Source: a bacterium
Lineage (GTDB): Bacteria > Zhuqueibacterota > Zhuqueibacteria > Residuimicrobiales > Oceaniaggregativiventaceae
Direction of reading: 5' to 3'
Assembly (NCBI GenBank): GCA_029565675.1
Contig: JAKQNP010000002.1
Coordinates: forward strand, 248,001 to 312,000
Length of the DNA: 64,000 nt
Positions 7,191 through 21,884 of this stretch are shown here, one piece after another. Position numbers and translations under genes: made by a program. How positions within the stretch are numbered: position 1 is the stretch's first letter; each line of letters begins with the position of its first letter. Below the pieces are notes generated by a model. It made no database searches. It was not told the DNA's origin and saw only the letters and a list, made by a program, of their open reading frames with translations.

Positions 7191-7254
7191 GAAAAGATGA
7201 TCAGAGTTATGTTCAGTGCGGATTGACCAACACCTGTTAAGGGAGGAACACCAT

Positions 7255-8901
7255 TTGAAGAAAAACAGTGCTCTGCTTGCACAGGTTTTACAAACACATC
7301 CTGATGTGGTTAAAAATCCTTTGCGCCGCCAACTCATTCAACAAGTTGTCGATTTCCAAGAGGCTCTGATTGCAGCAAATGGCTGCCTGGCCACCTGGAC
7401 CGAGATCAACTCGACCGGCCGCTCGCCGATGGACACTCTGATTGTACGCTATGAAGAGATCGAAAAAAATATCGACTGGGATTCTCCCAACAATATAGCA
7501 GTAGAATCCTCGACTTTTGCCGATCTTTGGCAGGATGCGCTAGATGTGCTGCAAGGAGCGAAGCGGATTTTTGTCACCGAGCGCGTGGTCGGGGCCGATC
7601 CGGACTATGCTCTGCAGGTGCGCACTGTGACCAGCAGCCCTTTGACTGCACTTTTTACCTACAATATGTTTCGCCCGGTCTTGCCAGAGATCTCGAACAG
7701 CAGATTTTTCGGCCGCGGATTCGATCTGCTGGTTGTGCCCTATGACAAGCTCAATCGGGAAAGATATGCCGGTCGTTTGCGCCGACTTGCTGACGGCCGG
7801 ACATCCGATATGGCCATCGTGATGGATTTCCGTCATCGCCTTGGCCTCGTATTCGGTTCAGCCTACCAGGGCAGTGTAAAAAAACTGGTTTTTTCTGTGA
7901 TGAACTATTACCTGCCGCAAGAAGGTATTCTGCCACTGCACTGTTCAGCCAACGAAAACAAACAGAGAGACCTGGCGCTTTTTCTCGGATTGTCGGGTAC
8001 AGGCAAGACCACTCTATCGGCGGATCCCAAACGCGCTCTGCTCGGCGATGATGAGCATGGGTGGAGCGATCATGGAATTGCCAATTTTGAGTATGGCTGT
8101 TATGCCAAACTCATCAATCTCAATCCGAAAAAGGAACCGGAGATCCATCAGGCGGTTTTTCACCAGGATCATTACTTGGAACACGGCGCCATCGTTGAGA
8201 ACGCACTGATGTTTCCGAATGGGTCCTTCGACTTGAACGATGAGAGGTTGACGCCGAACAGCCGGGCTTCCTTTCCACTTTCATTTTTGTCCAACATCAA
8301 GCCGTCTGCGGTTGGACCACACCCCAAAACCATCATTTTCCTCACCGCAGATGCCAACAGTGTCTTGCCGCCTGTGGCAAAGTTGACAGCTGAACAAGCG
8401 ATGTTGTGGTTTTTGCTCGGCTATACCAGCAAGCTTGCCGGCACAGAAACCGGTATTGTCGAACCGGTGTCGACTTTTTCGCGTTTTTTTGGTCAGCCGT
8501 TCATGCCCTGTCTGCCAGCCAGCTATGCCGATTTGCTCGGCCAACGGCTTAAAAAGCATGGTACGCAAGTTTATTTGGTCAACACGGGATGGAGCGGAGG
8601 ACCTTATGGCGTTGGCAGGCGCATGGATATCACCTTAACCCGCACAATTATCGATGCTGCGCTCAACGGAGGGCTCGCCTCGGTTCCACTGCGCAACGAT
8701 CCTTTGTTCCATCTGCAAGTTCCTCTGCATTGTCCAGGGGTGGATGACCAGTTGCTCGATCCGGCCGAGACGTGGAGCGACAAGGATGCCTTCCGCGGTC
8801 GCGCCCAAAAGCTGGCGGGCGAATTCAGCGTTAATTTCGACAAAGCTTATAAGAACAAAAAAATCGATAAAACGATCGTCTCCCAATGTCCGGGCAAATA
8901 G
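7255..8901 (+). CDS. pckA: Phosphoenolpyruvate carboxykinase (ATP)
   Basis: A 548-residue enzyme that interconverts oxaloacetate + ATP and phosphoenolpyruvate + ADP + CO2, the entry to gluconeogenesis. It shows the P-loop GLSGTGKTT (residues 245-253), the metal-binding LLGDDEHGW, and the substrate region MNYYLPQEG...LHCSAN, all of the ATP-dependent PckA family (usual length 520-550). The TTG at 7255 is preferred as start because GGGAGG lies eight bases upstream; a GTG at 7216 would add 13 residues with no ribosome site. It is a single gene with a strong promoter, convergent with the GH20 gene. Confidence 0.93.
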   Translation: MKKNSALLAQVLQTHPDVVKNPLRRQLIQQVVDFQEALIAANGCLATWTEINSTGRSPMDTLIVRYEEIEKNIDWDSPNNIAVESSTFADLWQDALDVLQGAKRIFVTERVVGADPDYALQVRTVTSSPLTALFTYNMFRPVLPEISNSRFFGRGFDLLVVPYDKLNRERYAGRLRRLADGRTSDMAIVMDFRHRLGLVFGSAYQGSVKKLVFSVMNYYLPQEGILPLHCSANENKQRDLALFLGLSGTGKTTLSADPKRALLGDDEHGWSDHGIANFEYGCYAKLINLNPKKEPEIHQAVFHQDHYLEHGAIVENALMFPNGSFDLNDERLTPNSRASFPLSFLSNIKPSAVGPHPKTIIFLTADANSVLPPVAKLTAEQAMLWFLLGYTSKLAGTETGIVEPVSTFSRFFGQPFMPCLPASYADLLGQRLKKHGTQVYLVNTGWSGGPYGVGRRMDITLTRTIIDAALNGGLASVPLRNDPLFHLQVPLHCPGVDDQLLDPAETWSDKDAFRGRAQKLAGEFSVNFDKAYKNKKIDKTIVSQCPGK

Positions 8902-12574: not shown

Positions 12575-12695
12575 GTCAAAAGAGCGTTGAGACGAAGACC
12601 TCAAAATGGGTTTGCGCAACAGAACTGATCAACCCCGCTGGCGCGAGGAATGTTGCGGCTCGTGACGCTGGCAAGGTGCGAAAATTTTTATTTTC

Positions 12696-12772: not shown

Positions 12773-15700
12773 ATGGATGTGAGTTTCGAAAAGATCACCC
12801 GACGGGCTCATACCCTCGGCAAGCATCATCGGAAATACATCGATCAGATTGAAAAAAATATCGATCCATTGATGGCACGGTTGGAGCAAGCCATGATGCT
12901 CGATCGCGTGCATCTGGTGAGCACACCCATTACATACAAAGAAGAGATGCGGCTGATTGCGGATCTGGCCGATTCCGTTCCTGAAAAATTGCAGGATCTT
13001 GGCTGTTATTTTGCACTCCATTTTTTGCAGATGAATCTAAACGCGCTGGACGCGCTCCGGCTGGAGATGATCATCCGCAAAGCCGAGCCCACGCAGGTTT
13101 TTCGCAATTTTATGTTGCAGGTCGGCCATGATTTTCGCAAACTCACGGCCGCTTATATGGAACAATTGCTGCAGATCTATTTGCCGCCGGACAAAAGCCC
13201 GGAATATGTGTTTCTCAGTGTGGGAACCCGATCAGATCAGGATGATATCGATATCGGGGTGGTGGACCGCGGCGATGCAGATCGCCAAATCCTCAATCTG
13301 GCAATCAGCCGGATGAGCAGCGAGATGTTTAAAAAGGCGATCTGCCTGCATTTTTATCTCTCTGAGCATGTGGGCAGCCCGTTATCCTTCTCCGCCTCGA
13401 TTCAGGAGTATTGCGACCTTCTGGATAAGGAAATTCATGATTTTGTCATCATCACCGAGATGCTCGGCGCTGCCCGCGTGATCGGCAGCCGCCGCCTGTT
13501 TTCGGATTTCCGCCGCCAGGTTACCATGCGTTACTACAACAATCCGGCCGAACCCGACAAGGTCAAATTCCATGAAGGCTATCTGCGCGGCATCGTCGGT
13601 GAGGTGCGTTCGCTCTATTTCCGCGATTTTTCCGCTGACTATATCAGCCCCAAAGGCGATGGCTTGCGCATGATCAAGGCTGGTCTCTATGCGGCCAAAA
13701 CCATTTTTCACCTTCGCCAGGTCAACGCCTGGCTCATTCTCGACGCTCTTAAACAACGCGATCGCCGACGCCATCGCCAGTATGAAAGTCTGGAAGAGCC
13801 GCTGACCTTCCTGGAAACTTTCCGCTATCTTTATCAGCTGCTCATCGGCCAGGAAGAAGATATTTCTCTCAACCAGCCTCATGCACTGGACAATATCTCC
13901 CAGGTCGCGGCGGCGATGGGCTATGAAGCAGTCGGCGGCGCGCAGATCGCTGATTTTTTTCTGACCGACTATTATAAAAGCGTATCCCTGGCAAAAGAGA
14001 CCATCCAACAGTTGATGCCGGATATTATCGACTATTTGAGCGGCATCACCATCTTTGGCAAATTGCTGCGCCACAAGCGCGTCACGGAAAGCGGGCAGCG
14101 CCGTATCGGCAATCTGGCCACTCGCTTCCTCGCTGAAACCAGGTTTTTTAGAGGCACCCAATTCTGGGATGATATCATTGCGGTGCTGAAAAAGAAAAAC
14201 GGCGAGGTTCTAAAACGGTTGGTCAACGACCTCAGCGCCCTGCCGCCAACCCAGCAGGAGCATGTGTTTCAAGGCTATAGCGAATGGGCATGGAACTCTT
14301 TTATCGCTGCTTTCCAGTTTCTGACGCTCTTGCATCAGTATCGCGATTTCTTGCCGGACCGCTATTTTTTTGAAAAGTTCAACGTCAATTTCTTTCACCG
14401 CATGCGCGGCACCGAGGAGGAAGCGCGGCGCCTGAGCATTGTGTTCAAATTTTACCCCAAACTTTTACACGACTATATCGGTCTGCTCGATGAAACCCAA
14501 CGCCGCAAGTTCGCCAAATGGATGGACAGCGAGGTCTGGGATCGACTTCTTGTCCCGTCGCGCAATCGGCTGCAAATCCTCCTCAAGCTCCACTACGGCA
14601 CCAGCAAGTACTTTAAACGGATCATGAATACCGTTTTTCAGGAACATCCTGAATATATCGATTTTCTCGATCAACCGCAGCATTTGAGCCTGATCGCCCA
14701 AGGCCATTTCGCCGAAGTTCAACATGCCTTGAATATCAAACACAAACTCAAACGACTGCTCGATTATCACCGTTTTGAGTTCTTCCGTGTCTGCCTAGGC
14801 GTTCTAAGCGATGCCCCGCCATTGCAGATCGCCAACGAGTTCACCGAGTTTTCCGATACCTATTTACACGTGTTGTTTGATGTCTGCAAACAGGATTATG
14901 ATGAACGCCGCGGGATTGAATACCATACCCAGGATCTGCTCGGCGTTTTCGTGACCGGTGGACATGGGCATATGCTGGCTTTCGATGACGATTATGACAT
15001 GATTGTTCTGCTCGATTCAGACGACGAAAAACTGCTCGCCTATTGCAACGGTATCGTCGGGCGTATGCATCAGGAGATCGTTAAAACCGGAATCATGCCG
15101 CACTACCGGCTGTCAGATTACACCGGTTCCTATGTCTGCACTTTTCGGCAACTCAAGGAGCTGCTCGATCATTCCTCGCAACTGTTTATCGATATTTCGC
15201 AACTGCTGGGCGCTCGCCTCATCGTCGGCAGTGCAGCGCTGCAGCGATCGTTTGAACAGACTTTTATCGTTCCCTACGCTTTCGATCGCTATGCCGTCTA
15301 TTGCCGCCAGATGATCGACGAAATCCAGTCGCGGCATCAATCTTTTTACAACCAGATCAGCGAAGGAATCAACATCAAGGAAAGCCCGGGTGGATTGAGG
15401 GATATCGAGATGTTGCTGTTGATCTGTCGAACAATTTTTCGTCTCCGCGAACACTCGAATTTCAAACTGCTGATGCTGCTGGCCAGCCGCCATACCGCAC
15501 AAAGCGCCTTCTTTGAGAACCTCTACCACCATTACGAATTCTTGCGCAAAATACGGAACCTCAACCGCCTGATGATCGCGGCCGATGATGAGATCAGTTA
15601 TACCCAGCTCGACAGTTTGACCGCCAATTTGCTCACAACATCGCCGGAATCGCTGTCCCGCGGACGAAATCTGGTCAGACAACTGGCCCGTACCATGATT

Positions 15701-15799
15701 AAAGTCCAAAAAGAGAGTGGTGTCATTTTTGAACAATTGATTCTTCCCAATCTGAATGTCCATTTTTGTGATCTTGAATCCTTAGAGGAGAACTCATGA
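12773..15799 (+). CDS. Large protein with two GlnD-like nucleotidyltransferase units
   Basis: A 1008-residue soluble protein, apparently a duplicated fold. The first unit has VGTRSDQDDIDIGVV (Asp157-Asp158-x-Asp160) and, 130 residues on, ISPKGDGLRMIK (291-302). The second unit has TGGHGH then FDDDYDMIVLL (Asp738-742) and, again about 130 residues on, IKESPGGLRDIE (868-879). This spacing of a DxD nucleotidyltransferase site followed by K-E-x-P-G-G-L-R-D is the N-terminal half of GlnD (PII uridylyltransferase) and of DUF294-type proteins. The HD and ACT domains of GlnD are missing. The first copy has lost the usual G-S loop and PGG, so only the second looks catalytically complete. The start is set by the promoter at 12696-12724. 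It overlaps the next gene by ATGA. Function unknown; nucleotidylation of a protein is inference. Confidence 0.8.
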   Translation: MDVSFEKITRRAHTLGKHHRKYIDQIEKNIDPLMARLEQAMMLDRVHLVSTPITYKEEMRLIADLADSVPEKLQDLGCYFALHFLQMNLNALDALRLEMIIRKAEPTQVFRNFMLQVGHDFRKLTAAYMEQLLQIYLPPDKSPEYVFLSVGTRSDQDDIDIGVVDRGDADRQILNLAISRMSSEMFKKAICLHFYLSEHVGSPLSFSASIQEYCDLLDKEIHDFVIITEMLGAARVIGSRRLFSDFRRQVTMRYYNNPAEPDKVKFHEGYLRGIVGEVRSLYFRDFSADYISPKGDGLRMIKAGLYAAKTIFHLRQVNAWLILDALKQRDRRRHRQYESLEEPLTFLETFRYLYQLLIGQEEDISLNQPHALDNISQVAAAMGYEAVGGAQIADFFLTDYYKSVSLAKETIQQLMPDIIDYLSGITIFGKLLRHKRVTESGQRRIGNLATRFLAETRFFRGTQFWDDIIAVLKKKNGEVLKRLVNDLSALPPTQQEHVFQGYSEWAWNSFIAAFQFLTLLHQYRDFLPDRYFFEKFNVNFFHRMRGTEEEARRLSIVFKFYPKLLHDYIGLLDETQRRKFAKWMDSEVWDRLLVPSRNRLQILLKLHYGTSKYFKRIMNTVFQEHPEYIDFLDQPQHLSLIAQGHFAEVQHALNIKHKLKRLLDYHRFEFFRVCLGVLSDAPPLQIANEFTEFSDTYLHVLFDVCKQDYDERRGIEYHTQDLLGVFVTGGHGHMLAFDDDYDMIVLLDSDDEKLLAYCNGIVGRMHQEIVKTGIMPHYRLSDYTGSYVCTFRQLKELLDHSSQLFIDISQLLGARLIVGSAALQRSFEQTFIVPYAFDRYAVYCRQMIDEIQSRHQSFYNQISEGINIKESPGGLRDIEMLLLICRTIFRLREHSNFKLLMLLASRHTAQSAFFENLYHHYEFLRKIRNLNRLMIAADDEISYTQLDSLTANLLTTSPESLSRGRNLVRQLARTMIKVQKESGVIFEQLILPNLNVHFCDLESLEENS

Positions 15800-16401
15800 A
15801 TCGCAATCTATCTCTTTTGACGCTTGTCCTCGCCTTGATCGCGGTGGGGATGGCCGTTTCCGCCTGGTCTCTGGCCAATCGTGCCAAGCAGATCGCGCTT
15901 TCTGAAATCGAGCTGGAGGAACGCGATGCGCTGTTGACACCGGTTTTCGATGAAGAAACAAGTTCATGGAGTTATCTGGCGATTTTTGAATGGGCGCTCA
16001 GCCACTCCAGCGGACCTGCCATCCGACTTGAATCTCTGGTGCCGGTCGAGGAGCAAGATGGCTATCTGGTTACTTTGTACGACGGCGCCCCGACTGGTTC
16101 GGATTTGCAGGAACGGGTTTTTCGCACCGAGTCGACCCTGCAGGAAATTCAGCTCCATCCTGAAAAAATCAAAACTCTGGGACAAACCGTTCTGGCGGAC
16201 CGGGAGTCCCTTGATCTGCAATTGGAGAGCGGAAAAACCCGCTTTTTGCGAGTTGGAGTCCGCTTGCATCCCTACGGCGAGAAACAGAATCTTTTGGCCG
16301 ATGTGGTTTTGCTCTCCTTCAAGCTCTGTTTTGATAACGGCAAAACGAGGATCATCCGCCGCGGAATTCCGATTCAAGCGCTTACGCACCTTCCACAATA
16401 A
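15796..16401 (+). CDS. Small membrane-anchored protein coupled to the nucleotidyltransferase
   Basis: A 201-residue protein I do not recognise. Residues 7-28 (LLTLVLALIAVGMAVSAWSLA) form one membrane segment, followed by a coiled region rich in Glu and then a beta-rich domain of about 150 residues facing the periplasm or remaining in the cytoplasm. Its ATG overlaps the stop of the 1008-residue protein (ATGA at 15796-15799), so the two are translated together and probably work together, perhaps with this protein as membrane partner. No catalytic motif is visible. Confidence 0.75.
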   Translation: MNRNLSLLTLVLALIAVGMAVSAWSLANRAKQIALSEIELEERDALLTPVFDEETSSWSYLAIFEWALSHSSGPAIRLESLVPVEEQDGYLVTLYDGAPTGSDLQERVFRTESTLQEIQLHPEKIKTLGQTVLADRESLDLQLESGKTRFLRVGVRLHPYGEKQNLLADVVLLSFKLCFDNGKTRIIRRGIPIQALTHLPQ

Positions 16402-17675: not shown

Positions 17676-19079
17676 CTAAAGTTTTTTGATTTCCGCCACC
17701 AATTCCTGCACCTTTTCTTTGGCACTGCCAAAGTACATCATCGCTTTGGGATTGTAAAACAATTCGTTGTCCACTCCGGCGAATCCGACATTCAAACTCC
17801 GTTTGATAATAATGATGTGGCGGGCTTTATCAACATCCAGAATCGGCATGCCATAGATGGGACTGCTGGTATCGGTGCGCGCTGCAGGATTAATAACGTC
17901 GTTGGCGCCGATCACCAACACCACATCGGTATGCGGAAATTCGGGATTGATGTCATCCATGTCGAAGAGCAAATTATACGGCACATTCGCTTCGGCCAGA
18001 AGGACGTTCATATGTCCCGGCATGCGGCCGGCGACCGGGTGAATGGCGAATTTGACTTCAACTCCGCGTTTGATCAGCAGTTCGGAAAGCTCGCGCACGG
18101 CGTGTTGAGCCATGGCGGCTGCCATGCCAAAACCAGGCACCACGACCACAGATTGCGCATACCCCACGATCATCGCAGCTTCTTCATTGTCGACCGATTT
18201 GACCGACTTGTCACCGCCGGCGGTTGTCGTCGCCCCGGCAGCCTGGTCGCCGGTTCCGAAAGCGCCGAAAAGAACATTGGACAGCGAGCGATTCATTGCT
18301 TTGCACATGATCTCGGTGAGGATCAAACCCGCAGCCCCAACCAGAGCGCCCGCGATGATCAAAATGTCGTTTTGTACCACAAATCCGGTTGCACAGGCAG
18401 CCAATCCGGAGAATGAATTGAGCAGCGAAATCACCACCGGCATATCCGCTCCGCCGATGGGGATGACCAGCATGACACCCAAAATCAAGGCGATCAGCGT
18501 CACAATTGAAAAGAGCAAGACACTCGGTTGGAAACCGGCAACGATGATGCTCAGGATCACCACTGCCAGCATCATGGCGGCGTTCACCGGTTTTTGCAGT
18601 TTAAAGGTGATCGGTGACCCGGATATCATCCCCTGCAACTTGCCAAAAGCCACCATGCTGCCGGTAAAGGTCAATGCACCGATAAAGACGCTGAGCAATG
18701 TGGTGATCGCAAGATCCACCGGCATTGCGGCAACCCTGCTCTGATGGTTGAATTCGACAAATGCGACCAGAGCCGAGGCGCCGCCGCCAAGCCCGTTGAA
18801 CAGACCAACCATCTGCGGCATGGCGGTCATTTTGACCAGCCGGGCAGAAAAAACCCCGATCAGAGTGCCGATGATCATGGCAATTGCAATCCATTTGAAA
18901 TCGATGATTTGCCGATCCAGCAGAGTCATGAGGATGGCAATCAACATTGCTATCGCGGCCAGCAGATTGCCGCGACGGGCTGTGGCCGGCGAACTCAAAT
19001 AGCGCAGCCCGAGTATAAACAATACCGCCGCCAAAAGATAGGCTAAAGCGATGACTGTAGACAAAGCGTCCATAGACAT
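17676..19079 (-). CDS. pntB: NAD(P) transhydrogenase subunit beta
   Basis: A 467-residue protein with about nine membrane helices (proton channel, domain II) followed by the NADP(H)-binding domain III. Domain III is recognised by VVVPGFGMAAAMAQHAV, IGANDVINPAARTD and KRSLNVGFAGVDNELF. It works with the two alpha gene products as a proton-driven transhydrogenase that makes NADPH from NADH at the inner membrane. It is the last gene of the pntAA-pntAB-pntB operon (29 bp after pntAB). Confidence 0.96.
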   Translation of the reverse strand: MSMDALSTVIALAYLLAAVLFILGLRYLSSPATARRGNLLAAIAMLIAILMTLLDRQIIDFKWIAIAMIIGTLIGVFSARLVKMTAMPQMVGLFNGLGGGASALVAFVEFNHQSRVAAMPVDLAITTLLSVFIGALTFTGSMVAFGKLQGMISGSPITFKLQKPVNAAMMLAVVILSIIVAGFQPSVLLFSIVTLIALILGVMLVIPIGGADMPVVISLLNSFSGLAACATGFVVQNDILIIAGALVGAAGLILTEIMCKAMNRSLSNVLFGAFGTGDQAAGATTTAGGDKSVKSVDNEEAAMIVGYAQSVVVVPGFGMAAAMAQHAVRELSELLIKRGVEVKFAIHPVAGRMPGHMNVLLAEANVPYNLLFDMDDINPEFPHTDVVLVIGANDVINPAARTDTSSPIYGMPILDVDKARHIIIIKRSLNVGFAGVDNELFYNPKAMMYFGSAKEKVQELVAEIKKL

Positions 19080-19108
19080 TCTCTCTTGTCTGTTGGGTGA
19101 TCCCGCGC

Positions 19109-19411
19109 TCAGGCTTGGGAGTTTTTGTTCTCTTTTTTCTTGAACATCTGCAGCATGCGGTCAGTCACCAAAAATCCACCGACCACATTGATCGTCGCGA
19201 AAGCGATGGCAATCATACCGAGAACCACCTCAAGCCATCCAGCCCCCCGACCGGAGATCAACAAGGCGCCGATGACGGCAATACCGGAGATCGCATTGGC
19301 TCCGGACATCAAGGGGGTGTGCAGAGTCGGCGGTACCTTGGTGATCACCTCAAAACCGACAAAGGTCGACAACACAAAGATTGTCAGGCCGACCATCAAT
19401 TCCTGCGGCAT
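19109..19411 (-). CDS. pntAB: NAD(P) transhydrogenase subunit alpha part 2
   Basis: A 100-residue membrane protein with three hydrophobic helices, starting MPQELMVGLTIFVLS and containing TLHTPLMSGANAISGI, the conserved start of the alpha-subunit membrane domain. It ends in a lysine-rich tail (KKKENKN). As a separate gene it shows the three-subunit layout known from Rhodospirillum rubrum, rather than the fused alpha of E. coli. ATG at 19411 has AAGGGAG seven bases upstream. Confidence 0.94.
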   Translation of the reverse strand: MPQELMVGLTIFVLSTFVGFEVITKVPPTLHTPLMSGANAISGIAVIGALLISGRGAGWLEVVLGMIAIAFATINVVGGFLVTDRMLQMFKKKENKNSQA

Positions 19412-19428
19412 AAAATCTCCCTTCAAGA

Positions 19429-20571
19429 CTATTTGATATTCAGCATCGATTTGACTTGTTCATGGATTACTTGTCCCGCATGGGTGATGCAGGTGCTTTT
19501 GATGATTTTATCCGTGAAATCGAGCTGCAATGCCCCGTCCTTGAGCAAAAGTTTGAGCAGAGCCGAGATGTTGCGCGCATACATCTGGCTGCTGTGTATC
19601 GCCATGTCGCTGGCCAGATTGACAGGCCCGATGAGCATCACACCTTCGTGGCTGATGGTCTTGCCAGCTTCGGTCAGATCACAGTTACCTCCCTGGTCGA
19701 CGGCCATGTCCAACACCACGCTGCCGGGTTTCATCGCTTCGATCATGTCGCGGGTGACAATCCGAGGCGCTCTTTTGCCGGGCACTTGTGCCGTAGTGAT
19801 GACCACATCCGCCGCCGCAACATGGTCATAGACAGTCTGTTTGATCCGCTCCTGACTGCCTTGCGAGACCTCTTTTGCATAGCCGCCGCCGGCTTCGGTC
19901 TCTTCTTCCAGTTCGGCCTGTACAAATTTGGCTCCGAGACTTTCCACTTCGATTTTCGCCGCCGGACGGATATCAAACGCTTCGACGACCGCTCCCAAAC
20001 GATGAGCGGTGGCAATCGCCTGCAATCCGGCCACTCCGGCGCCGATAACAAACACTTTGGCCGGCCGAATCGTTCCGGCAGCGGTGGTCAACATGGGGAA
20101 AAACTTTTTGCTCTCCTTGGCTGCCCATAACACCGCCTTGTAACCGGCTGCTGACGCCTGGGAAGAAAGCGCATCCATACTCTGCGCTCGGGTGATGCGC
20201 GGCAAGGTTTCCATGGCTAGGGCGGTAATCCCTTTTTTTGCCAATTTTGCCGCCAATTCCGGTTGCTTCATGATCTCCAGGAAAGAGATCAAAACACTGC
20301 CGGACGGGTAGTCATCAATTTCATGCCGCCCTTTTTCATCCTTTGGCGGATTGACTTTGAGGATTATCTCTGCTCCGGCAAATAACTTTTGATGCGAAGG
20401 CGCGATCTTGGCTCCCGCATTCGTGTAATCCGTGTCGGTACAAGATGCCCCCAAACCTGCTCCTTTTTCCACCCAGACCTCAAATCCCGAATCTGTCAAC
20501 CGTTTGACCGCATCGGGCGTCATAGCGACACGTTCTTCCGGCAGGATTTCTTTTGGAATGGCTATTTTCAT
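19429..20571 (-). CDS. pntAA: NAD(P) transhydrogenase subunit alpha part 1
   Basis: A 380-residue soluble subunit that binds NAD(H) (domain I). It resembles alanine dehydrogenase. The dinucleotide fold GAGVAGLQAIATAHRLGA and the following EAFDIRP are clear, and VVITTAQVPGKRAP matches the transhydrogenase loop. It starts MKIAIPKEILPEERVAMTP, typical of the family. It is the first gene of the pntAA-AB-B operon, with GGAGATGAG before the ATG and a probable promoter at 20711-20738. Confidence 0.96.
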   Translation of the reverse strand: MKIAIPKEILPEERVAMTPDAVKRLTDSGFEVWVEKGAGLGASCTDTDYTNAGAKIAPSHQKLFAGAEIILKVNPPKDEKGRHEIDDYPSGSVLISFLEIMKQPELAAKLAKKGITALAMETLPRITRAQSMDALSSQASAAGYKAVLWAAKESKKFFPMLTTAAGTIRPAKVFVIGAGVAGLQAIATAHRLGAVVEAFDIRPAAKIEVESLGAKFVQAELEEETEAGGGYAKEVSQGSQERIKQTVYDHVAAADVVITTAQVPGKRAPRIVTRDMIEAMKPGSVVLDMAVDQGGNCDLTEAGKTISHEGVMLIGPVNLASDMAIHSSQMYARNISALLKLLLKDGALQLDFTDKIIKSTCITHAGQVIHEQVKSMLNIK

Positions 20572-20710
20572 CTCATCTCCTTGAAGGAAATTTACCGCTT
20601 TTCACGTCTCATTTTCTTGTCATGCCCCGCTTCAATCGAAACGAAACAGCAGCATTTTCGCATGGCCGGGATGCGGGGTGTTCGGGGTGTTGAGAATTTA
20701 GATGTTTATT

Positions 20711-20738
20711 GTTATAAATCAAGGTTTTTCCGAATCAA
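20711..20738 (-). promoter_or_regulatory. Promoter for pntAA-pntAB-pntB
   Basis: On the minus strand TTGATT (20738-20733), a 16-base spacer, TATAAC (20716-20711). The leader to pntAA would be about 130 bases. The rest of 20572-20828 holds no gene. Confidence 0.5.
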
Positions 20739-20828
20739 ACATAGGGCAATACACTCAGCGGATCTGTCCAATTTCTGCAGATGGCGATAACCAAAGACAG
20801 CTCCCCCAAAATGGTCTTTTTTGCTCCA

Positions 20829-21884
20829 TTAGGCAACCGCAATCATGCGCTCCACAGCACGCAACGCTTTGCGGCGAATCTTTTCAGGCACTTTTATGAT
20901 GTATTGGGTCTTTTGCAGCGAAGCCAGCGTATCCTCCAGAGTGATCTCTTGCATGTGCGGACAGCGGATGCTGCACAGACGCAGCATCTCTTTGTCTTTG
21001 TTTTCTGCAGCGATATTGTCGCCCATGCTGCATTCGGTGAGCAAAAGATAACGGTTGGCTTTGACTTGCTGCACCGCCCGGATCATCGCTGAGGTGCTGC
21101 CGCTGAAATCCGCCGCTGCCGTCACCTCCGGGCTGCATTCAGGATGCGCCAGGATATAGACATCGGGAAACTTTTTGCGGACGTTCTCGATGTCCGCAAC
21201 CGTAAACTGCTCATGGACTTCACAGCGACCGTTCCACCCGATCATCTCATATTCGAGATTGGGGTCGGGATAGCGCAGTCCGAGTCTGCTTTTAACCGGG
21301 AAAACGATTTTTTTGCCTGACTCTTTTGCAACATTCCTGGCCAGATATTCGTCCGGCAAGAAAATGATGCGGTCGCTGTTGAGGCTCTGGACCAGTTTGA
21401 CCGCATTGCCCGAAGTACAGCAATAATCGCTCTCCGCTTTGACATCCGCATAAGTGTTGACATACGAGACGACCGGCACACCCGGATATCGCTTTTTCAG
21501 CTTGCGCACATCGCTGGCCGTGATGCTCTCGGCCAAAGAGCAGCCTGCTTTTTTGGCCGGCAGCAAAACCGTTTTGTTCGGATTGAGAATTTTTGCTGTT
21601 TCAGCCATAAAACGAACGCCGCAAAAGACGATGATCTCTTTGTCGGTTTCCGCGGCTTTGCGGCTCAGCTCGAGAGAGTCGCCGACATAGTCCGGAACGG
21701 TATGAAAGAGAGCAGGCTCCATGTAGTTGTGTCCCAGGATGACCGCATTGCGCTCCTTTTTCAAGCGATTGATCTCATAAACGATCTCAGCCTTTGTTTT
21801 GAGCTCTGCCGCGGGGATGAACTCGGCCAGTTTTTCTTTCATCCTCTCGAACGTGGCTTGCACAGTTTTTTCATCGATTGGCAT
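20829..21884 (-). CDS. nadA: Quinolinate synthase
   Basis: A 351-residue [4Fe-4S] enzyme that condenses iminoaspartate with dihydroxyacetone phosphate to quinolinate in NAD synthesis. It shows the family motifs: VILGHNYMEPALFHTVPDYVGDS near the N-terminus, CGVRFMAETAKILNP, PAKKAGCSLAES, DYCCTSGNA, HPECSPEV and LLTECSMGDNI; the three cluster-binding cysteines lie in the last groups. Length matches the 340-360 form. No nadB or nadC lies nearby. It lies 87 bp downstream of the rRNA methyltransferase gene. Confidence 0.96.
   Translation of the reverse strand: MPIDEKTVQATFERMKEKLAEFIPAAELKTKAEIVYEINRLKKERNAVILGHNYMEPALFHTVPDYVGDSLELSRKAAETDKEIIVFCGVRFMAETAKILNPNKTVLLPAKKAGCSLAESITASDVRKLKKRYPGVPVVSYVNTYADVKAESDYCCTSGNAVKLVQSLNSDRIIFLPDEYLARNVAKESGKKIVFPVKSRLGLRYPDPNLEYEMIGWNGRCEVHEQFTVADIENVRKKFPDVYILAHPECSPEVTAAADFSGSTSAMIRAVQQVKANRYLLLTECSMGDNIAAENKDKEMLRLCSIRCPHMQEITLEDTLASLQKTQYIIKVPEKIRRKALRAVERMIAVA

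Follow-up and report, generated by a model that had tools for sequence, protein, structure and literature searches.

2-Oxoglutarate links carbon and nitrogen metabolism, and the classical signalling chain around it runs through GlnD, PII, GlnE and glutamine synthetase (GlnD-PII-GlnE-GS). This chain is missing from the genome of the bacterium that supplied the stretch of DNA analysed here (64,000 nucleotides of contig JAKQNP010000002.1, assembly GCA_029565675.1, positions 248,001 to 312,000; hereafter the window). The window encodes a protein of 1008 residues, labelled GLND2 in this report, with two nucleotidyltransferase (NTase) units of the GlnD type, which raises the question of what such a protein would modify in this organism. 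Our answer, which we hold as a serious possibility falling a little short of an even chance, is that GLND2 represents a new family of tandem protein NTases resembling GlnE, and that its target would be the ferredoxin oxidoreductase KorABC, via the linked KorC subunit, or a linked protein of the tricarboxylic acid (TCA) cycle.

The open reading frame (ORF), described in an earlier sequence-only reading of this DNA, is real: its start Met at 12773 is the same Met in the homologues (alignment A1), and a longer start at 12650 was discarded, since the homologues give it no support. Pfam matches the protein in two stretches with a single family, GlnD_UR_UTase (PF08335, E=3.6e-17), one of the HEPN-like domains found alongside NTases of this kind (PMC3710099), and finds no other significant match. 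Profile-profile comparison of unit 1 with unit 2 (99.8%, E=1.6e-30) bears out the two GlnD-type units of that reading. The HD domain of GlnD, which removes UMP, and its two glutamine-sensing ACT domains are absent, as it had also stated, and the AlphaFold2 model leaves no space for them behind unit 2.

Both units keep the hG[GS]...DxD site of the Pol-beta-like NTase fold in all 66 homologues of alignment A2, which reaches down to about 30% identity. Identical throughout these sequences are G151, D157, D158, D160, K294 and R299 in unit 1 and G729, D740, D742, K869, G873, R876 and D877 in unit 2, and in the model the DxD sites lie on core-sheet strands 158-165 and 740-747. The sequence-only reading had put the motifs in the right places (D158xD160 with K294/R299; D740xD742 with K869-G873-R876-D877), but had taken the first copy to be degraded, and this does not hold: besides its six identical residues, unit 1 is slightly the more conserved of the two over the NTase part (mean majority fraction 0.629 vs 0.608). 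Its degraded look is probably an effect of the loop from the glycine to the DxD, which is shorter than in unit 2. Judged by these residues, both NTase units are intact and neither is degraded, and because both active sites are invariant in the 66 homologues, the division into one active and one regulatory copy proposed earlier is wrong.

The model of GLND2, built from alignment A2 (predicted local distance difference test, pLDDT, 89.5; predicted template modelling score, pTM, 0.81), was compared with the PDB using Foldseek. The best match is the N-terminal half of E. coli GlnE (1v4a, E=2.4e-10, TMt 0.73) and the second its C-terminal half (3k7d, E=2.6e-8), all others having E>=3e-3, which leaves the GlnE halves as the sole confident structural neighbours. 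The best sequence-profile matches in the PDB are the same pair, and hhalign aligns GLND2 with the GlnE profile end to end (801 columns, 99.6%), placing D158/D160 and D740/D742 on both catalytic DxD of GlnE. Because fold, profile matches and end-to-end alignment all point to GlnE, we expect GLND2 to work like GlnE.

Full-length homologues, which come from metagenome assemblies, were found in 30 of the 82 genomes of the phylum, a count that leaves out G002 and G003, where weak matches fall on GlnD/GlnE-type proteins. A search with profile A1, one genome per species, gave at least 80 further loci outside that set, all in metagenome-assembled genomes by title, with KSB1, Calditrichota, Zixibacteria, WOR-3/Stahlbacteria, Krumholzibacteria, Latescibacterota, Cloacimonadota, Gemmatimonadota and others as hosts; the family is probably larger than this. 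Four loci titled Actinomycetota, Acidobacteria, Myxococcales and Chloroflexi (L072, L041, L057 and L067) have GLND2 proteins that group with those of KSB1, Latescibacterota or Zixibacteria, and are probably mislabelled or mixed bins. One genome, G056, has two full-length copies (C54 and C249), with KorA and KorC genes found upstream of the C249 copy only.

The neighbours of GLND2, like its GlnE-type tandem layout, had been missed in the sequence-only reading. The gene korC encodes the gamma subunit of a 2-oxoacid (2-oxoglutarate-type):ferredoxin oxidoreductase, and the nearest named relatives of the neighbouring korC include the 2-oxoglutarate enzyme OorC. When 1071 flanking ORFs were clustered, a single association dominated: korC appeared in 52 loci, korB in 40, korA in 36 and a KorD-like ferredoxin in 19. 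Among the 72 loci with upstream sequence present, korC lies upstream of GLND2 on the same strand within 1.2 kb in 45 and within 400 bp in 35, and 63 have at least one of kor, sdh, fumarase, pck or hdr in their flanks. The linkage to korC occurs under eleven phylum titles besides KSB1, some of them doubtful, and the linked or unlinked state requires 12 changes on the family tree. In the order to which the window belongs, GLND2 has moved away from kor, and in relatives (L035, L036, L084, L099) it stands beside sdhABC, fumarase and pckA. The korDABC genes of the window genome are followed by ndk-DUF177-plsX; the same layout in L043, L055, L082 and L097 has GLND2 before ndk.

The KorC proteins linked to GLND2 group in a single clade that is separate from other KorC, and the KorC of the window genome falls inside it. 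Zixibacteria have two korC paralogues in different clades, one copy in a korDABC-hdr operon and a solo copy, of the linked clade, just upstream of GLND2; loci with both paralogues are L056, L083, L062, L071, L078, L089, L100, L104 and those of other Zixibacteria. Within the phylum, linked-type KorC is present in 29/30 genomes with GLND2 and in 6/52 without it, by a Fisher test blind to shared ancestry. The Tyr of the KorC motif SYGPEARG is found in 98% of linked KorC and is mostly Phe in unlinked paralogues, making it a candidate modification site on sequence grounds, although it could also be structural.

Taken together with the korC and TCA-cycle linkage, these features suggest a switch on carbon flow that has not been described before. 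One unit of GLND2 would modify a target protein with a nucleotide, adenosine or uridine monophosphate (AMP or UMP), while the second unit would remove it, or else work on a second site or state. Most likely the target would be KorABC, via the specific linked KorC gamma subunit, or a protein of the TCA cycle whose gene is closely linked. We favour KorC, since korC alone keeps its place next to GLND2 at loci where the other kor genes lie elsewhere. Oxidation of 2-oxoglutarate would then be gated by carbon/nitrogen or energy state, with the poorly conserved helical middle of GLND2 as a possible sensor of the signal; no confident profile match to a sensor domain was found in that region. A bolder version, in which GLND2 would be a third regulator of the GlnD/GlnE superfamily, a separately duplicated writer and eraser that reversibly nucleotidylates KorC and provides a covalent switch at the 2-oxoglutarate node where PII and GlnE are lacking, seems to us distinctly unlikely as a whole.

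Several observations weigh against the proposal of a GlnE-like enzyme acting on KorABC or a TCA-cycle protein. Gene linkage names no substrate; 9 of the 72 loci have no kor, sdh, fum, pck or hdr gene in the flanks examined, and in the window genome itself kor is on another contig, with GLND2 located by pckA instead. The Fisher tests of co-occurrence take no account of shared ancestry, and in six genomes of the phylum linked-type KorC occurs without GLND2, which is therefore not essential to Kor. Finally, in an uncertain alignment GLND2 offers no clear equivalent of GlnE's third catalytic carboxylate (VDxRLRP), and the chemistry may therefore differ. The next core strand carries H193 in unit 1 and H777 in unit 2, with acids E198 and D782 five residues further, also by uncertain alignment; replacement of the third catalytic Asp by His was dropped as a firm claim, as alignments differ by at least one residue.

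Substrates of this NTase superfamily include antibiotics, RNA and proteins, and the target of GLND2 could lie outside the TCA cycle (a small molecule, an RNA or a carrier), or the protein could be a non-catalytic maturation factor for the oxidoreductase. The lack of a clear counterpart of the third carboxylate would fit this, as would a second small protein that stands between korC and GLND2 in WOR-3/Stahlbacteria and gives a weak DUF6036 match in one of three cases. We consider it rather unlikely, since the HEPN-like partner domains of the GlnD/GlnE type are known with protein substrates (PMC3710099), and conservation of the catalytic residues in both units argues against a non-catalytic role. 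The gene of this small protein, of about 245 residues, directly precedes GLND2 and in many cases overlaps it by 4 bases; it occurs in 13 loci, most of them from WOR-3/Stahlbacteria/TA06 (L061:7605-8339, L048, L051, L052, L054, L055, L058, L059, L060, L068, L070, L091 and L105); its DUF6036 NTase match reaches 3.8e-6. A search with PADLOC for a defence role matched neither this NTase-like protein, nor GLND2, nor the 201-residue neighbour discussed below.

It is improbable that GLND2 is a divergent GlnE that adenylylates and de-adenylylates glutamine synthetase, despite the shared tandem architecture, nearest structures and end-to-end alignment. The family is absent from genomes with canonical GlnD/GlnE-type proteins (0/12 vs 30/70 others in the phylum; Fisher test with the same limit as above), as if it replaced them. 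However, the best score of GLND2 against the NCBIfam GlnE equivalog is 19.7 bits, the cut-off being 625, and PF03710 is matched in only 2 of 27 family members (PF03445, weakly, in 6). In a tree of separate units, units 1 and 2 of GLND2 fall together on one side with 95 ultrafast bootstrap support (UFBoot, LG model), or 83/79, not starred, under a mixture model, and the halves of GlnE group with each other at 100/100. Trees constrained to place unit 1 beside the GlnE N-half (p=6e-8) or unit 2 beside the C-half (p=6e-6) are rejected by approximately unbiased (AU) tests. The ancestry of GLND2 is separate from that of GlnE, and from these sequences the two-unit layout probably arose twice, once in each; owing to the long branches in the unit tree, separate duplication is likely, not proved. 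The window genome has no type I glutamine synthetase, its sole enzyme being type III (GSIII_N 4e-75; G000:C62:49309-49833, L155:1443-3863). In the flanking-ORF survey, glnA did not turn up repeatedly near GLND2; in G028 and G005, by contrast, a true GlnE of roughly 1240 residues adjoins the glutamine synthetase gene. Membership of GlnE was rejected on the equivalog score, the AU tests and the lack of a type I enzyme.

Even less probable is a role as a uridylyltransferase of the GlnD kind, with PII or a PII-like protein as its substrate. The shared family PF08335 is named for GlnD, unit 2 has its best hhalign match in the GlnD N-domain (E=5.5e-18), and PII scores over cut-off in 17 of the 30 genomes with GLND2. 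Against this, the other 13, the window's included, have no PII over cut-off, and its presence is uncorrelated with that of GLND2 (p=0.65). PII (PF00543) was not found in the window genome, which is 95% complete. The tandem units and the missing HD and ACT domains also speak against it, and the score against the NCBIfam GlnD equivalog is 54.3 bits, the cut-off being 1010; membership of GlnD was rejected on these missing domains, this score and the lack of PII. Because the window genome has no PII and only a type III glutamine synthetase, neither classical substrate is encoded there, and GLND2 is its only PF08335 protein, with no other GlnD/GlnE protein present. The view that the protein is undescribed stands; a literature search combining GlnE, GlnD or nucleotidyltransferase with 2-oxoglutarate oxidoreductase or KSB1 found no description of the family among the papers listed. 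Proteins of this type should not be annotated as PII uridylyltransferases.

The sequence-only reading had instead tied GLND2, through an ATGA overlap, to a downstream membrane gene. The overlap and the 201-residue ORF are there; the partnership is not. The gene adjoins GLND2 in four genomes (the window's, G000; G047, of the same genus; G046; and G042, where the two genes are divergent), being near-adjacent or overlapping in G047 and G046, and lies elsewhere in 15. Of the 22 genomes in the window's order 19 carry it, six of them without GLND2; no other genome of the phylum does, including those outside the order that have GLND2. Its product has no Pfam match, and a model of modest confidence, built from 3 sequences (pLDDT 71.9), gives a single transmembrane helix together with a beta-rich domain. 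This gene is a local neighbour of GLND2, not a conserved partner or module; the conserved neighbours are korABC and TCA-cycle genes. The idea that an active and a regulatory copy modify the membrane protein, which the overlap and the arrangement in G047 and G046 would favour, deserves next to no credence given two invariant active sites and a gene that adjoins GLND2 in four genomes only, often occurs where the NTase does not, and is missing from genomes outside the order.

Table 1. Features of the GLND2 locus, in window coordinates
Feature	Position	Strand	Basis or remark
GLND2, 1008 aa: N-terminal helices, unit 1, helical middle, unit 2	12773..15799	+	alignments A1, A2; AlphaFold2 model
Unit 1, residues about 115-425: NTase core and HEPN-like GlnD_UR_UTase helical domain	13115..14047	+	second PF08335 match; GlnE N-half aligned by hhalign, E=1.2e-8
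Unit 1 active site, V150-G-T-R-S-D-Q-D-D-I-D160	13220..13252	+	invariant residues; D158/D160 aligned with SDIDL in the N-half of E. coli GlnE
Unit 1 second motif, residues 291-300 (K294, D296, R299)	13643..13672	+	alignment A2
Helical middle, residues about 440-635, least conserved part	14090..14677	+	mean majority fraction 0.42; GlnE/GlnD matched weakly or not at all
Unit 2, residues about 690-1000: NTase core and GlnD_UR_UTase domain	14840..15772	+	PF08335 E=3.6e-17; both GlnE halves and GlnD aligned by hhalign, E 1e-16 to 5e-18
Unit 2 active site, G729-G-...-D740-Y-D742	14957..14998	+	aligned with SDLDL of GlnE C-half
Unit 2 second motif, K869-E-x-x-G-G-L-R-D-I-E879	15377..15409	+	aligned with K-x-x-x-GGI-x-DIE of GlnE
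201-aa protein, one N-terminal transmembrane helix and beta-rich domain	15796..16401	+	ATGA overlap with GLND2 at 15796-15799
PckA, ATP-type phosphoenolpyruvate carboxykinase; recurring GLND2 neighbour in the window's order (also L034, L035, L036)	7216..8901	+	PF01293 E=2e-158

A scan for promoters and terminators found nothing exceeding shuffle expectation. Downstream, on the reverse strand (17676-21884), lie transhydrogenase genes (PntB by Pfam) and a quinolinate-synthase-like gene, in the same order in L035.

If GLND2 acts as proposed, the 2-oxoglutarate node would have a second switch by nucleotidylation, evolved independently and spread across uncultivated phyla, and the two-unit design of writer and eraser would have arisen twice; the linkage to KorC supplies a directly testable substrate. 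A precedent for a dedicated post-translational switch at this node is the OdhI/GarA-PknG system of Actinobacteria, which acts on 2-oxoglutarate dehydrogenase (PMC9769921). As presented there, it consists of an inhibitor protein and a Ser/Thr kinase acting on the dehydrogenase complex, not of nucleotidylylation of a ferredoxin oxidoreductase, and its proteins are unrelated to GLND2. Closer in design is GlnE, an AMPylase and deAMPylase made of two NTase domains and a joining regulatory domain (PMC12663964). GLND2 shares with it the two tandem NTase and helical units on about 950-1000 residues, both DxD and its sole confident fold matches, and differs in that its units form their own group, its neighbours are korC and TCA-cycle genes, PF03710 is mostly unmatched and VDxRLRP is not conserved. 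With GlnD, GLND2 has in common the module of NTase and GlnD_UR_UTase (PF08335), its unit 2 aligning with the GlnD N-domain, but it has two units and neither HD nor ACT, and PII is absent from 13 of the 30 genomes that carry it. The DUF294/DUF294_C nucleotidyltransferases (PF03445/PF10335) show the same pairing of an NTase with a HEPN-like helical domain, but are known as single units, not in tandem.

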